Of a DNA stretch of 43,950 nt, positions 25,958 through 31,388 are shown in pieces. Source of the DNA: Deltaproteobacteria bacterium HGW-Deltaproteobacteria-18 (lineage in GTDB: Bacteria > Desulfobacterota > Desulfovibrionia > Desulfovibrionales > Desulfomicrobiaceae); NCBI GenBank assembly GCA_002841885.1, contig PHBE01000023.1:1-43950 (forward strand). Direction: 5' to 3'. The position numbers and the translations under genes are program-made. Every line of letters begins with the position of its first letter. Position 1 is the first letter of the stretch. Below the pieces are notes generated by a model that was not told the DNA's origin, did no database searches, and worked only from the letters and a program-made list of their open reading frames with translations.

Positions 25958-26332
25958 ATGAAACGCCTCAGGAGTTTATTGATTGTTCTCGTACTGTTGA
26001 GCACGGGATGCGCGGCATTGGTGGTCGGAGGCGCGGCAGCGGTCGGAACGTATACATATGTTGCAGGACAGTTGCAGCGGACCTACAACGCCAATCTCGA
26101 CGCCACGTACCAGGCCACGCTGGCCGGATGCGAAGCGCTTGGGTTGCCCGTTCAGGACAGGCAAAAACAGCTCAGCAAAGCTTTGGTCAAGGTCATAGAC
26201 GGAGACCGTGATGTCTGGATATCGCTTACCGCTCAAAGCTCCACAACCACCGAAGTCTCCATCCGAGTGGGCTATCTTGGTGATGAGCTTGCGTCGCGGC
26301 GCATCCACGAAGCAATTCAGGCCCGGCTCTAA
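25958..26332 (+). CDS. Small DUF3568-like lipoprotein
   Basis: A 124-residue predicted lipoprotein: leader KRLRSLLIVLVLLSTGC with the lipobox Cys at about 18, then an Ala/Gly/Val-rich stretch and a compact domain with RTYNANLDATYQATLAGCEA and VSIRVGYLGDELASRRIHE. This matches the DUF3568 pattern as I remember it; function unknown. The ATG at 25958 follows GGAGG at an ideal distance; an ATG at 25946 overlaps that SD and is rejected. It is 59 bases after recJ and ends in a strong terminator. Confidence 0.8.
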   Translation: MKRLRSLLIVLVLLSTGCAALVVGGAAAVGTYTYVAGQLQRTYNANLDATYQATLAGCEALGLPVQDRQKQLSKALVKVIDGDRDVWISLTAQSSTTTEVSIRVGYLGDELASRRIHEAIQARL

Positions 26333-26336
26333 AAAC

Positions 26337-26365
26337 GTTAAGCCCCCGACCAGCGGGGGCTTAAC
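26337..26365. terminator. Bidirectional rho-independent terminator
   Basis: A perfect 12-bp stem, GTTAAGCCCCCG (26337-26348) with CGGGGGCTTAAC (26354-26365), and a five-base loop. On the minus strand it is followed by G and TTTTT; on the plus strand by AGTATATTTT. It separates the converging lipoprotein gene and the selenium operon. Confidence 0.93.
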
Positions 26366-26390
26366 AGTATATTTTGGGCCGCTACGCCCT

Positions 26391-27890
26391 TCAAACCCAG
26401 GCAAAACGCATGGCCTGCATGAAAGCGGGGCCGAAATCATCCCTTTCGATCAGCCCTTCCAAGACCACCCGACCCGGCAAGCAGGCAAGCCAGTCGCGGA
26501 TATCCTCCCGCTCCAGCGCCAGAAGAGTTCCAGCCAGAGCCGTGTTTCCGGCCACCTCTATTTTCTCCCGCCATGCCTCCGGCAAAAAACCCAGCGTGAT
26601 CAAGTCGGAAGGCTCCGCGTGCTCTCCCAAAGCCCCGGCCAGATAAATCCGAGCCACATCTGCTTCCTGCAGGCCCGCACGCCGGACCAGGCTTCTCAGC
26701 GCCACGTTGACTCCCGCCTTGGCCTTCAAAAATTCTTCGACATCACGCTCCGCCACGAACACCCCTGGTTCGAGGTCGAGAATACGGCCGACCCTGTGAG
26801 TGCGGATGCGCTGTGATATCTTGCGGGCCAAGGGCATCGTCGCGTCCCGAAAATGGCCAGCCTCATCGATCACGCCAAGACGCCGCAGCAGAGCCAATAT
26901 GGACGCGTAGCCCGTCCCGGAGACGCCGCTCAAAGGCGTCCCGAACCATTGAAGACCCGTTGGCCCAAGAGAGACGCGACTGAGCACGTGCTCTCCCGCC
27001 GCGGCTCCGCAGCACAGGCCCACGCCTTCGATGGCCGGCCCCATGGGCACGCTGCAGGCAAAAAAATGTTCTGCGTCCAGCGCCAGGACGAATTCACCGT
27101 TCGTGCCCAGATCGGCAAGAAGAAAAGGGTAGTCAGGCTCGAGAGTTGAAATATAAGCGAGGCCAGCGCTGATGTCGGCACCGATAAAGGGGCCGAGCAG
27201 GGGCGGAATATAGGCGGCAGGCAAATTGTCATCGATACGGACAGTCTCGCCGCCGCGCCATGGCAGACTGTACGGCGCATAGGCCAAGCCGTTAAGCGAT
27301 ACGTCCAGGAGGAGCCCTATCATGGTGCTGTTCCCGCAGACGGCCAGGGAAAGGGCTCCGCTCTGTCGCACCAAATCCTGCATCAACTGAATGGCCGATT
27401 GACGCAGATGATCACGCGCCGCATCCGAAGAGAGCGCGTATCTCAGCCTGGACATGACCTCGCTGCCAACACCCATCTGCGGATTGATCGTGGCAAACTC
27501 CGGACTATGGCCCGCACTGGAGCACAACGACCATTTGATCCGAGTGGTGCCGATATCAACGGCAAGGCCCTCACCGCGCACACCGCCAAGCATGACCGGA
27601 GCAGACACGGGCACTTCAATACTGCAAGGCTCAGTCACCAGATGCTTGCAGCCCAGTCGCCAGCCATCCGCCAATTCTTCAGCGCCAAGCCTCGTCTGGT
27701 CATCAGGGCACGGCAGAGGGGGGGCTTCAAGAAATCGAATCCTGCATTTGCCGCAAAGCCCGGTGCCTGCGCACAGTTCGCGGCCCCGACTGATGCCGGT
27801 CTCAAAAAGCAGGTGCAAAAACGGCTGACCGGGTCGGGCCTGGACCGAAACCGCAATTGCACCGGCCTGATGGATGTCGACTCTCAGCAC
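26391..27890 (-). CDS. 2Fe-2S ferredoxin/ASKHA-domain protein, RACE-like (DUF4445)
   Basis: A 499-residue protein. Residues 1-95 are a plant-type ferredoxin domain with cysteines 40, 46, 49 and 81 (ELCAGTGLCGKCRI, GWRLGCKH). The rest is an ASKHA ATPase fold: GLAVDIGTTRIKWSLC phosphate loop, LLADLGTNGEFVLAL second loop, then a CCGAAAGEHVLSRV region. This is the layout of reductive activators of corrinoid-dependent methyltransferases, which use ATP to return cobalamin to Co(I). No corrinoid protein or methyltransferase is nearby. The GTG start at 27890 lies inside the last seven bases of selD with AAAGG upstream, so it is translationally coupled to selD. Confidence 0.82.
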   Translation of the reverse strand: MLRVDIHQAGAIAVSVQARPGQPFLHLLFETGISRGRELCAGTGLCGKCRIRFLEAPPLPCPDDQTRLGAEELADGWRLGCKHLVTEPCSIEVPVSAPVMLGGVRGEGLAVDIGTTRIKWSLCSSAGHSPEFATINPQMGVGSEVMSRLRYALSSDAARDHLRQSAIQLMQDLVRQSGALSLAVCGNSTMIGLLLDVSLNGLAYAPYSLPWRGGETVRIDDNLPAAYIPPLLGPFIGADISAGLAYISTLEPDYPFLLADLGTNGEFVLALDAEHFFACSVPMGPAIEGVGLCCGAAAGEHVLSRVSLGPTGLQWFGTPLSGVSGTGYASILALLRRLGVIDEAGHFRDATMPLARKISQRIRTHRVGRILDLEPGVFVAERDVEEFLKAKAGVNVALRSLVRRAGLQEADVARIYLAGALGEHAEPSDLITLGFLPEAWREKIEVAGNTALAGTLLALEREDIRDWLACLPGRVVLEGLIERDDFGPAFMQAMRFAWV

Positions 27891-28930
27891 AGCATAAGCC
27901 TTTTTCCATCAGCTCGCGGCGGCTCCACAACCCCGATCTCGGCAACCATCTCGCCTCGGTCACGCAGCCACTCCCGCACATCACCAAGCACGTCAGATGG
28001 CACGCCGAGGAGCATTCCGCCCGAGGTCTGAGCATCGTACATGAGGTCAAGCAGGACGGGATCAAGAGCCGTCGAGGCTTCAACCGTCTTGTGACAAAAA
28101 TGCTTGTTGGCGTGACTGCCAAGCGGCAAAAGACCGACGCGGGCGAGATCCAGAGCGTGATCCATGATGGGAACGGAAGAGACATCAATGGATATCGAGC
28201 AGTCAGAGGCTGTCGCCATTTCAAGGACATGTCCCCCAAGACCGAAACCAGTGATGTCCGTTGCGGCCTTGAGACCGAATCTGGCGACCGCTTCGCCCGG
28301 AACGCGGTTGAGGCGTGCGGCCCAGCGATACACGTCTTCCTCAAATCCGTCGCATCCCTCCCACTGTGCCTTGATGGCTGTGGCCAGAACGCCTGTGCCT
28401 ATCGGCTTGGTCAAAAGAAGCACGTCCCCGGGCCTAAGCCCGGCGTTAGTGGCGTATCTGTCTGGGTCGACGATGCCCGTAACCGACAACCCGTACTTGA
28501 TCTCTTTGTCCTGAACGCTATGGCCACCGACCAGCATGGCACCGGCTTCCTGGACCTTGAGCAGTCCTCCGCGCAGGATTTCGCGAAGAATCGAAACATC
28601 CATGGTCGCGATGGGAAAACACACTATGTTCATGGCTACATACGGGACGCCGCCCATGGCATAAACATCGGAAAGAGAGTTGGCAGCCGCGATTTGGCCG
28701 AACCTGAACGGGTCATTTACTATGGGCGTAAAGAAATCCAGCGTCTGGACCAGCGCCTTTCCAGCAGGAAATCTGACAATGGCGGCATCTTCGCTGTTTC
28801 CCATCCCGGTAAGAATCCGTTCATCGCCCTCGAAATTCAGTCCGAGCAATGCCTGCTCCAAGTCCCCTGGAGCCAATTTGGCAGCTCAACCGGCGGCGCT
28901 GACCGTTTGAACCAATGGAGTGTTTTTCAC
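27884..28930 (-). CDS. selD: Selenide, water dikinase (selenophosphate synthetase), selenocysteine-containing
   Basis: A 348-residue enzyme that makes selenophosphate from selenide and ATP for selenocysteine and selenouridine synthesis. The frame starts at GTG 28930 (GAGGT seven bases upstream) and overlaps the LysR stop as GTGA. Codon 15 is TGA (28886-28888), in the context SAAGUAAKLAPGDLE. Position 15 is the catalytic Cys/Sec site and Lys18 the neighbouring essential lysine. Reading on gives a full SelD: QTLDFFTPIVNDPFRFGQIA, NSLSDVYAMGGVP, LVGGHSVQDKEIKYGLSVTG, TDITGFGLGGH. A call starting after the TGA would have to use a TTG (28876) and would lose the active site. A SECIS-like hairpin follows the TGA. 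Confidence 0.93.
28850..28888 (-). promoter_or_regulatory. Bacterial SECIS-like element with Sec UGA in selD
   Basis: The TGA (28888-28886) is followed after 12 bases by a perfect 6-bp stem, GCTCCA (28873-28868) with TGGAGC (28860-28855), and a seven-base loop GGGGACT. A lower 4-bp stem, TGCC (28883-28880) with GGCA (28853-28850), closes an internal loop. Spacing and a G-rich apical loop agree with the known bacterial SECIS layout bound by SelB. Confidence 0.8.
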
Positions 28931-29844
28931 GATTTTGACCTCACAGCAATGTTCTGAGCGTTGTTCTTCAAAAAGTCTATGAGCTTGATTGCGGCAGGAA
29001 ACAGGGATCTCTTCTTGTTGAAAACAACATGGAAGGATCGCTCCAACTGCAATCCGGGCAGGTCAACGGCCATAAGGGATCCCGTTTCAAGCTCATCATG
29101 GATGGTGATGGCGGAGGTGATGGACGCCCCCATGCCAGCGGAAAGACAGCGAGACATGGCACCGGCGTTTCGGACCATGATGACCGTTCGCAAGGAATGG
29201 ATGTCGATCCCGAACTTTGCGAGACTCTCAGCCATGGCCACACGCGTTCCTGAGCCCTCCTCACGCATGACCCAGGGCAGGGATCGCAACAAATCTTCCA
29301 CCGTCTGATGACGGTGTTTTTCATACAGCGACGGTGTCATGGCCAGAACAAGAGAATCGCTGGCGATCTTTTGATAGTGAAGATCGGGAGATTCAAATAC
29401 AGCGCCAACCACACCCAGCATCAACCCGTTGTCACGTACCTGCGTAACGATATCTTCGGAATCGCCTATGCGCAGATCCATTATCACTTCCGGGTACTTC
29501 TTCCAAAATTTTGCGAGGATTTCCGGCATGATGTAATTCGCAGGAATGGTGCTTCCGCCCAGATCAAGCTTGCCGGTAATGCGGTCCTGAAGCTTTCTGA
29601 GCTCGGAAATCGCCAGTTCGGATGCTTCAAATATTTTCTTGGCGTGTTCGTAGAGCACTTCGCCTGCCTTGGTAGGAACTACACTGCGCCCAATTCGGTC
29701 AAATAACTGGACTTCAAGTTCCTGTTCAAGCGAGGCCACATGTGCACTGATTGTCGGTTGAGAGAGATAGAGTGACTTTCCTGCCTTGGAAAAACTGCAG
29801 TGCTCGTAAACCTTCGAAAAAGCTTCGATTTTGCGGATGTCCAT
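28927..29844 (-). CDS. LysR-type regulator, probably of the selenium-metabolism subgroup
   Basis: A 305-residue LysR protein. The winged helix-turn-helix covers about residues 1-60 (FSKAGKSLYLSQPTISAHV), followed by the linker helix and a periplasmic-binding-protein-like effector domain (LDLGGSTIPANYIMPEILAK, VMREEGSGTRVAMAESL, AGMGASITS). The N terminus MDIRKIEAF and linkage to selD fit what I recall of a LysR group tied to selenium metabolism. The frame opens at 29880, but the ATG at 29844 is the family start. Its stop overlaps the selD GTG by four bases. The effector and DNA site are unknown. Confidence 0.85.
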   Translation of the reverse strand: MDIRKIEAFSKVYEHCSFSKAGKSLYLSQPTISAHVASLEQELEVQLFDRIGRSVVPTKAGEVLYEHAKKIFEASELAISELRKLQDRITGKLDLGGSTIPANYIMPEILAKFWKKYPEVIMDLRIGDSEDIVTQVRDNGLMLGVVGAVFESPDLHYQKIASDSLVLAMTPSLYEKHRHQTVEDLLRSLPWVMREEGSGTRVAMAESLAKFGIDIHSLRTVIMVRNAGAMSRCLSAGMGASITSAITIHDELETGSLMAVDLPGLQLERSFHVVFNKKRSLFPAAIKLIDFLKNNAQNIAVRSKS

Positions 29845-29858
29845 ATATGCCCATTCCT

Positions 29859-29888
29859 GGTATAGATAAAAACGATACATCAGGGCAA
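29859..29888 (-). promoter_or_regulatory. Possible promoter of the LysR-selD-RACE operon
   Basis: Read on the minus strand: TTGCCC (29888-29883), 18 bases, TATACC (29864-29859). It sits between the rplQ terminator and the LysR start. Match to consensus is moderate. Confidence 0.3.
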
Positions 29889-29911
29889 AAAATAAGGCAG
29901 CTTGGCTGCCT
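29886..29911 (-). terminator. Rho-independent terminator of the ribosomal protein cluster
   Basis: On the minus strand AGGCAGC (29911-29905) pairs with GCTGCCT (29901-29895) across a three-base loop, followed by TATTTTTT. It lies 19 bases after the rplQ stop. Confidence 0.9.
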
Positions 29912-29929
29912 CATTTTCTTTCGATATAT

Positions 29930-30352
29930 CTATGCTTCTTCAGTAGATGCTGAGGCTGCTGCCTCGGAACCTGCTGTTTCAGCAAACTTGTCACTCAAAC
30001 GTGTGAATTCGATAAGCGCCATGGGGGCACTGTCGCCGACACGAGGAATACCGAACTTGACGACTCTTGTGTAGCCGCCGGGGACATCCTTGAAGCGGGG
30101 ACCAATCTCATCAAACAGCTTTTTGACGCTGTGATGACTGCCCAGAACCGTATAGGCCTGTCTGCGAGCATGCAGAGTGTCCTGAAGTGCCATCGTGATG
30201 AGCTTGTCAGCAAAGATGCTCAGTTCCTTGGCCTTGGCTTCAGTCGTACGAATCCGCTCATGTTCAACCAAGGAGCGAACCATATTCTTCATCAGGGCTT
30301 TGCGGTGTTCCCACGTACGCCCCAGTTTTCGACCAGCTTTTCTATGCCTCAT
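29930..30352 (-). CDS. rplQ: 50S ribosomal protein L17
   Basis: A 140-residue protein near the peptide exit tunnel. [40 protein letters not shown] and [20 protein letters not shown] are family signatures. An Ala/Ser/Glu-rich tail of about 20 residues extends past the usual end. The start overlaps the rpoA stop by 11 bases. Last gene of the alpha operon. Confidence 0.97.
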
Positions 30353-31388
30353 CTTCTTCGTTCCTCTTTAACCAATCCTGGTACAATTCGTCAAAATTAT
30401 CGACTCTGATTCCGAAATCAAGTCCCATGCTCTCAAGAACCCGGCGAATGTCTTCCAGAGACTTCCGACCAAAATTCTTGGTCTTCAGTAAATCGGCCTC
30501 GGTCTTCTGGACCAGTTCGCCGACGATATGGATCCCTGCGCTTTTAAGGCAGTTGCTCGCTCTCACGGGAAGTTCAAGATCTTCGATGTTCTTGAAGAGA
30601 TTTTCGTTGATCTTGTCCTGGGGCTTGGATTTGGCCTTCTCAATATCAGCGGAGCCTTCATCGAAATTGATAAAGACGGTCAGCTGCTCTTTCAGAATCT
30701 TGGCGCTGAAAGCCAAGGCATCGTCCGGAGTGAGGGAGCCGTCGGTCCAAACCTCGATGATCAATTTGTCATAATTGGTCATCTGGCCGACACGAGCCTG
30801 CTCTACCGCATAAGCAACCTTGCGGATGGGAGAAAAGCTCGAGTCCAGGGTGATAACGCCGATCTCGTTGTCCAGATCCTCGTGCATCTCGGCAGGAACA
30901 TAGCCCTTGCCCATGCGGAACTCGAGATTCATGACCAAATCGATATCTTCGGAAAGAGTCGCGATATGCAAATCAGGATTGAGAATCTTAATATGCTGAT
31001 TTTCAACAATTGCAGACGCCGTGACCTCGCCTTTGGCATTGGCAATGAGCTGAACCCGCTGTGGCTCGGGAGTGTTCATAGCCACACGCAATTGCTTCAG
31101 GTTCAGAACAATGTCGGTAATATCTTCATTGACCCCGGGGATGGTCGTGAATTCATGCTGAATGCCCTGAATATTGACCGAAACCGGAGCCGCGCCCTGA
31201 AGAGAAGAAAGAAGAACCCGGCGCAGTGCATTTCCGATCGTGGTACCGAAACCTCTTTCCAGAGGTTCGCAGATAAATCGACCGTACATGTCATCGCATT
31301 TCGGATCTTTTTCAAGTTGTTCCGGCCTGACAAGCTCTGCCCAATTTCGGACGTAAACTTTTTTGTCTCCGCTATACGTAGAACTCAT
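30342..31388 (-). CDS. rpoA: DNA-directed RNA polymerase alpha subunit
   Basis: A 348-residue subunit whose dimer nucleates RNA polymerase assembly. The N-terminal domain shows [20 protein letters not shown] and [20 protein letters not shown]. The C-terminal domain ([40 protein letters not shown]) contacts UP elements and activators. Length is somewhat above the E. coli 329, mainly in the N-terminal extension and the tail. It is 12 bases downstream of rpsD. Confidence 0.98.

Follow-up and report, generated by a model that had tools for sequence, protein, structure and literature searches.

The question raised by this locus is whether selD, the gene for selenide,water dikinase (selenophosphate synthetase), is translated through an in-frame TGA as selenocysteine (Sec), so that the enzyme would depend for its synthesis on its own product. 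The gene occupies positions 27884-28930 of the minus strand in a window of 43,950 nucleotides, by which we mean the whole stretch of DNA that was analysed. Its GTG start codon (28930-28928) stands 8 nt after a Shine-Dalgarno-like GAGG (28939-28942, minus strand) and overlaps by 4 nt (GTGA) the preceding gene, which encodes a LysR-type regulator, and its frame closes with a TGA at 27886-27884. Between these two codons there is a single internal TGA, at codon 15 (28886-28888, minus strand), and translation with Sec at that residue gives a protein of 348 aa. The coordinates, the GTG start, the Shine-Dalgarno sequence, the 4-nt overlap and the residues round the TGA were all correct in the original prediction, which had been made from the sequence of the window.

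The product was assigned to SelD from its translation, from its relatives in the PDB and from its score against the curated SelD model TIGR00476 (333.3 bits, cut-off 125), while remaining under the cut-offs of two narrower SelD models, NF002098 (275.5 of the 299 bits required) and NF010705 (164.9 of 291). It aligned with the solved structures 2yye and 3u0o through the active-site segment, and a Cys in 3u0o falls opposite the TGA. Residues 14-18 read GUAAK, and Lys18, three residues after the Cys/Sec site, was kept in 43 of 43 loci. Translation of the frame and alignment thus both bear out the proposal that the TGA at codon 15 is the Cys/Sec site of SelD, with a Lys three residues on.

The same codon was TGA in all 110 loci that were read, comprising the window itself and 80 plus 29 relatives, among which L019 and L103 are identical in sequence and L024 and L116 probably belong to one genome; 104 of the loci were mapped by tblastn, and the other six were found through a peptide motif and then read. 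In a class-wide search, 262 of 297 genomes matched SelD at E <= 0.001, a few of them weakly and possibly through paralogues, and one TGA was recorded in all 150 of the matches listed. In nine loci of the same genus, the protein sequence encoded ahead of the TGA is conserved. Between the window and L103, for example, 7 of the 14 codons before the TGA differ, and six of these seven differences are synonymous. Judged from these comparisons, selection maintains the TGA of codon 15 as a sense codon, and the SelD segment before it is not a product of chance. As a separate observation, the codon immediately before the TGA (28889-28891) was GGT in 32 of 43 loci, where codon usage would lead one to expect about 8, possibly owing to a context effect on recoding.

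The genome in which the machinery for Sec was sought (3.99 Mb in 37 contigs, 99.97% complete) holds selA (579.9 bits), selB (366.5 bits, cut-off 242) and selC (86.3 bits, cut-off 47). A second match to the selC model, at 47.9 bits against the same cut-off of 47, is probably another tRNA, and ARAGORN found no tRNA genes in the window. The original prediction had named the absence of selB or selC, and a second, Cys-containing selD, as findings that would speak against it; all three of selA, selB and selC are in the genome, and selD has a single match genome-wide, which rules out a second, Cys form. Sec decoding has other customers in this organism, since two formate dehydrogenase genes (fdhA) were found over the cut-off and each of them holds one TGA. 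The best match to selenouridine synthase (mnmH/ybbB, TIGR03167) in the genome reached 25.7 bits against a cut-off of 219.75. A role of SelD in serving selenouridine was ruled out on this score, and Sec synthesis is therefore the sole use of selenophosphate found, of those searched.

A candidate bacterial SECIS-type hairpin, recognised from its fold, from counts of kept pairs and from the codon bias of codons 21-25, lies at 28855-28873 on the minus strand. It consists of an 8-pair stem with the loop GGA (GCUCCAGG-GGA-CUUGGAGC) and takes up bases 16 to 34 of the mRNA, numbered from the T of the TGA, that is, 13-31 nt past the TGA, with a spacing of 20 nt from TGA to loop. Pairing across the hairpin was kept in 92.6% of cells in 39 aligned sequences, against 17.3-57.7% when the partner was slid, a comparison in which the true register is favoured over the slid versions by the derivation of the structure from the window's own sequence. 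These 39 were the first, in hit order, of 99 distinct sequences, which were obtained from the 104 mapped loci after identical or short segments had been dropped, the 6 unmapped loci being excluded. Three of five shuffle measures of the hairpin beat all 500 shuffles, and the other two were reached by 100 and 57 of 500. Over the 99 sequences, the three pairs nearest the loop were each present in 93 to 99, all of the inner five together in 64 and the outermost pair in 33, counts that overstate the number of independent events because the sequences are related.

Codon usage was scored in 43 loci, selected by closeness and by name, from which L024 and L103 were left out as duplicates, and scoring was restricted to columns with the same residue in 35 or more loci. 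Codons 22-25 (GGG GAC CTG GAG) were used in 42/43, 42/42, 37/43 and 43/43 loci, respectively; for GGG at codon 22, about 10 of 43 would be expected from each gene's own usage, and among 117 conserved columns of residues that have at least four codons its codon entropy was the lowest. In the same 43 loci, codons 21-25 accounted for five of the eight columns in which a single codon was most in excess. As to folding energy, the 45 nt after the window's TGA were no more stable than synonymous recodings (z of -0.53), 31% of which fold as well, and the same test over 104 loci gave a mean z of -1.3, with 28 loci below -2 and 17 above 0. The case for a SECIS element, as read from sequence, is thus carried by the comparative evidence, of which the codon bias is the strongest, rather than by folding energy. 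An Rfam search of the window returned no matches at the gathering score, so the hairpin is neither supported nor denied by Rfam.

Homology, the full Sec machinery, the single selD, the kept TGA and the SECIS-type hairpin all support SelD being a selenoprotein, as originally proposed, and we put at about 97% the probability that the gene encodes a predicted active SelD with Sec as its nucleophile. By the established mechanism of bacterial Sec insertion, the hairpin would be bound by SelB with Sec-tRNA-Sec, the ribosome would insert Sec at UGA 15 of selD, and the resulting SelD would convert selenide and ATP into selenophosphate for SelA. Because the genome has only one selD, synthesis of the enzyme would depend on the product of SelD made earlier, and from this need for pre-existing product it follows that low selenium should lower SelD, presumably through termination at codon 15. 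A study that used fdhF (PMC4513850) reports a Sec recoding of 30-40% in vivo that needed enough selenium. We infer that the supply of SelD feeds back on its own synthesis, and the Sec trait of this genome is indicated to rest on one self-dependent enzyme.

On the minus strand, selD stands in a row of genes that runs from the LysR regulator through selD to an ASKHA protein and then to a terminator-like hairpin. The LysR-type gene (28927-29880, minus strand) matched NF040786, the NCBI model for selenium metabolism-associated LysR regulators, with 287.8 bits (cut-off 250) from residue 13, and its likely start is Met13, near 29844. The gene after selD (26391-27890, minus strand) encodes an ASKHA protein of the RACo/DUF4445 type, and its GTG start overlaps the selD stop, the overlap of the two genes being 7 nt (GTGCTGA). 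Its product matched the RACo C-terminal domain PF14574, formerly DUF4445 (139.1 bits, cut-off 27), and the RACo middle domain PF17651 (68.1 bits, cut-off 26.8), with a weak match to Fer2 (2Fe-2S ferredoxin) of 19.8 bits against a cut-off of 21, and the gene is the sole PF14574 match in the genome. As a corrinoid activator AcsV (NF040756) it scored 161.6 bits, below the cut-off of 800. The intrinsic terminator-like hairpin (26336-26366, minus strand; 13 pairs and a T tail) follows the three genes and came from a consensus scan that returned 5 such sites in the window against 4.4 expected. A promoter scan of 26300-30000 gave 3 sites against 1.5 expected, none of which precedes the LysR gene on the strand that encodes it. 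The genes rplQ and rpoA (29930-31388) precede the LysR, selD and ASKHA genes on the same strand, and these three may therefore be transcribed as part of the ribosomal protein operon.

By analogy, the ASKHA protein is probably an ATP-driven reactivase of B12 for methionine synthase. In Price et al. 2018 (PMC5764234), DUF4445 proteins, those of Desulfovibrio included, were inferred from mutant fitness to reactivate B12 for this enzyme. The activation domain of MetH (Met_synt_B12, PF02965) had no match in the genome, and the best metH match, with 427 bits, falls under the full-length cut-off of 1010.85 and ends at 873 of 1182. Reactivation of MetH is the simplest role for the ASKHA protein in view of the missing domain, the short metH match and the data of Price et al. 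As an aside, this metH match appears to be a core form that lacks the C-terminal activation domain. Sec in MetH itself was considered and rejected, and the TGA inside the match is read as the normal stop of metH because an 806-residue open stretch runs up to it, the match extending about 8 codons further.

Since selD lies between a selenium-type LysR gene and an overlapping, B12-linked ASKHA gene, its recoding might also set B12 reactivation. UGA 15, besides placing Sec, would then gate the LysR-selD-ASKHA operon of this genus by selenium, through translational coupling or polarity: ribosomes that insert Sec would translate as far as the selD stop, which lies in the overlap, and start anew on the B12 reactivase gene, and B12 reactivation would follow selenium status. 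We hold this extension to be tentative and on the whole unlikely. It agrees with the sole PF14574 match, the lack of a match to the Met_synt_B12 domain and the early end of the metH match, and also with the selD/ASKHA overlap, which is of equal size in all 10 loci of the genus that were read, the window among them, one of which has TAA for TGA. Linkage across the class speaks on both sides. It was assessed in the 112 genomes common to the selD and ASKHA tables, among the matches listed (150 for each gene): selD adjoins the ASKHA gene in 19 of these, from 7 genera and 4 families, whereas the two are apart in the other 93, either far from each other on one contig (28) or on different contigs (65). 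In the window's genus they are neighbours in 10 of the 11 genomes with a selD match, among the matches listed, but in the eleventh, the draft genome G236, they lie on different contigs. In L116, which belongs to another family, no ASKHA start is possible until 35 nt past the selD stop, and the two matches of G083 are separated by about 300 nt. Moreover, the ASKHA gene does not generally depend on selD, given that an ASKHA match is kept in 15 of the 20 genomes listed without selD (of 35 without selD in all). Three fragmented genomes of the same genus (G126, G214 and G263) match neither gene; selB is over the cut-off in G126 and G263 and not in G214, and either an assembly gap or a joint loss may lie behind the missing selD and ASKHA matches.

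If the gate were real, methionine synthase reactivation would track selenium supply and tie selenium to the metabolism of methionine and one-carbon units. The new lead from this locus is the tight linkage of selD to a probable B12 reactivase, which recurs in several genera and would make a coupling of selenium to methionine testable. The literature searched, which takes in few subscription papers, yielded no report of selD together with DUF4445, and selD with LysR and selenium was not found there in a Desulfovibrio or sulfate-reducing selenoprotein context.

We consider it improbable to a high degree that UGA 15 is mostly decoded as Cys or another amino acid, at least at low selenium. Such decoding would solve the bootstrapping of an enzyme dependent on its own product, a real start-up problem where there is a single selD, and Cys-containing SelD enzymes are called functionally equivalent in PMC4561486. 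However, the SECIS-type constraint and the complete Sec machinery favour Sec, and SelD carried over at division may suffice in growing cells.

That the TGA is a true stop, with SelD made from the downstream TTG at 28876 (330 aa) and lacking the catalytic residue, or with a gene in decay, is scarcely credible. A stop-to-stop ORF listing of selD does begin exactly at TTG 28876 and gives 330 aa, and the truncation of SelD by gene calling that the original prediction foresaw was thereby seen with one ORF lister. The product of that frame, however, would be without Sec15 and Lys18, and no other selD match was found in the genome, yet selA, selB, selC and TGA-bearing fdhA genes are present. This explanation was rejected because the codons ahead of the TGA are conserved as protein in nine loci of the genus and because the TGA occurs in 110/110 loci. 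Annotation without awareness of Sec would remove the active site of SelD. A sequencing or assembly error at 28886-28888 in place of TGC or TGT, which the original prediction had set beforehand as a finding against itself, has nothing in its favour and is excluded with next to no residual likelihood because the TGA recurs in relatives, both in 110/110 loci that come nearly all from other genomes and in 150/150 among the matches listed from the 297-genome search.

The SelD of E. coli is a Cys17 form, and it belongs with the chains 2yye and 3u0o to the same family as the enzyme with Sec preferred here, sharing the active-site segment G-C/U-x-x-K; the two solved chains differ from it in having Cys in the aligned position. 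FdhA and SelD were the most widespread bacterial selenoproteins of the set surveyed by Zhang et al. 2006 (PMC1794560), who list SelD as a selenoprotein for D. vulgaris and D. desulfuricans. These Desulfovibrio enzymes and the one described here are alike in coming from deltaproteobacterial sulfate reducers that also have Sec-containing formate dehydrogenases, and no difference between them was established. In Mariotti et al. 2015 (PMC4561486), Sec is given for 19% of the SelD genes of reference prokaryotes, always at the same position, whereas in the window's class it is found in 150/150 among the matches listed. Since these two papers describe SelD with Sec, the selenoprotein found here is ordinary, common in relatives and already known in kind. 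The DUF4445/RamA-like B12 reactivation proteins of Desulfovibrio and Phaeobacter (PMC5764234) are likewise of the RACo type in a genome without PF02965; they differ in that D. vulgaris DvMF_1398 is said there to hold two DUF4445 domains, whereas here the ASKHA gene overlaps selD.
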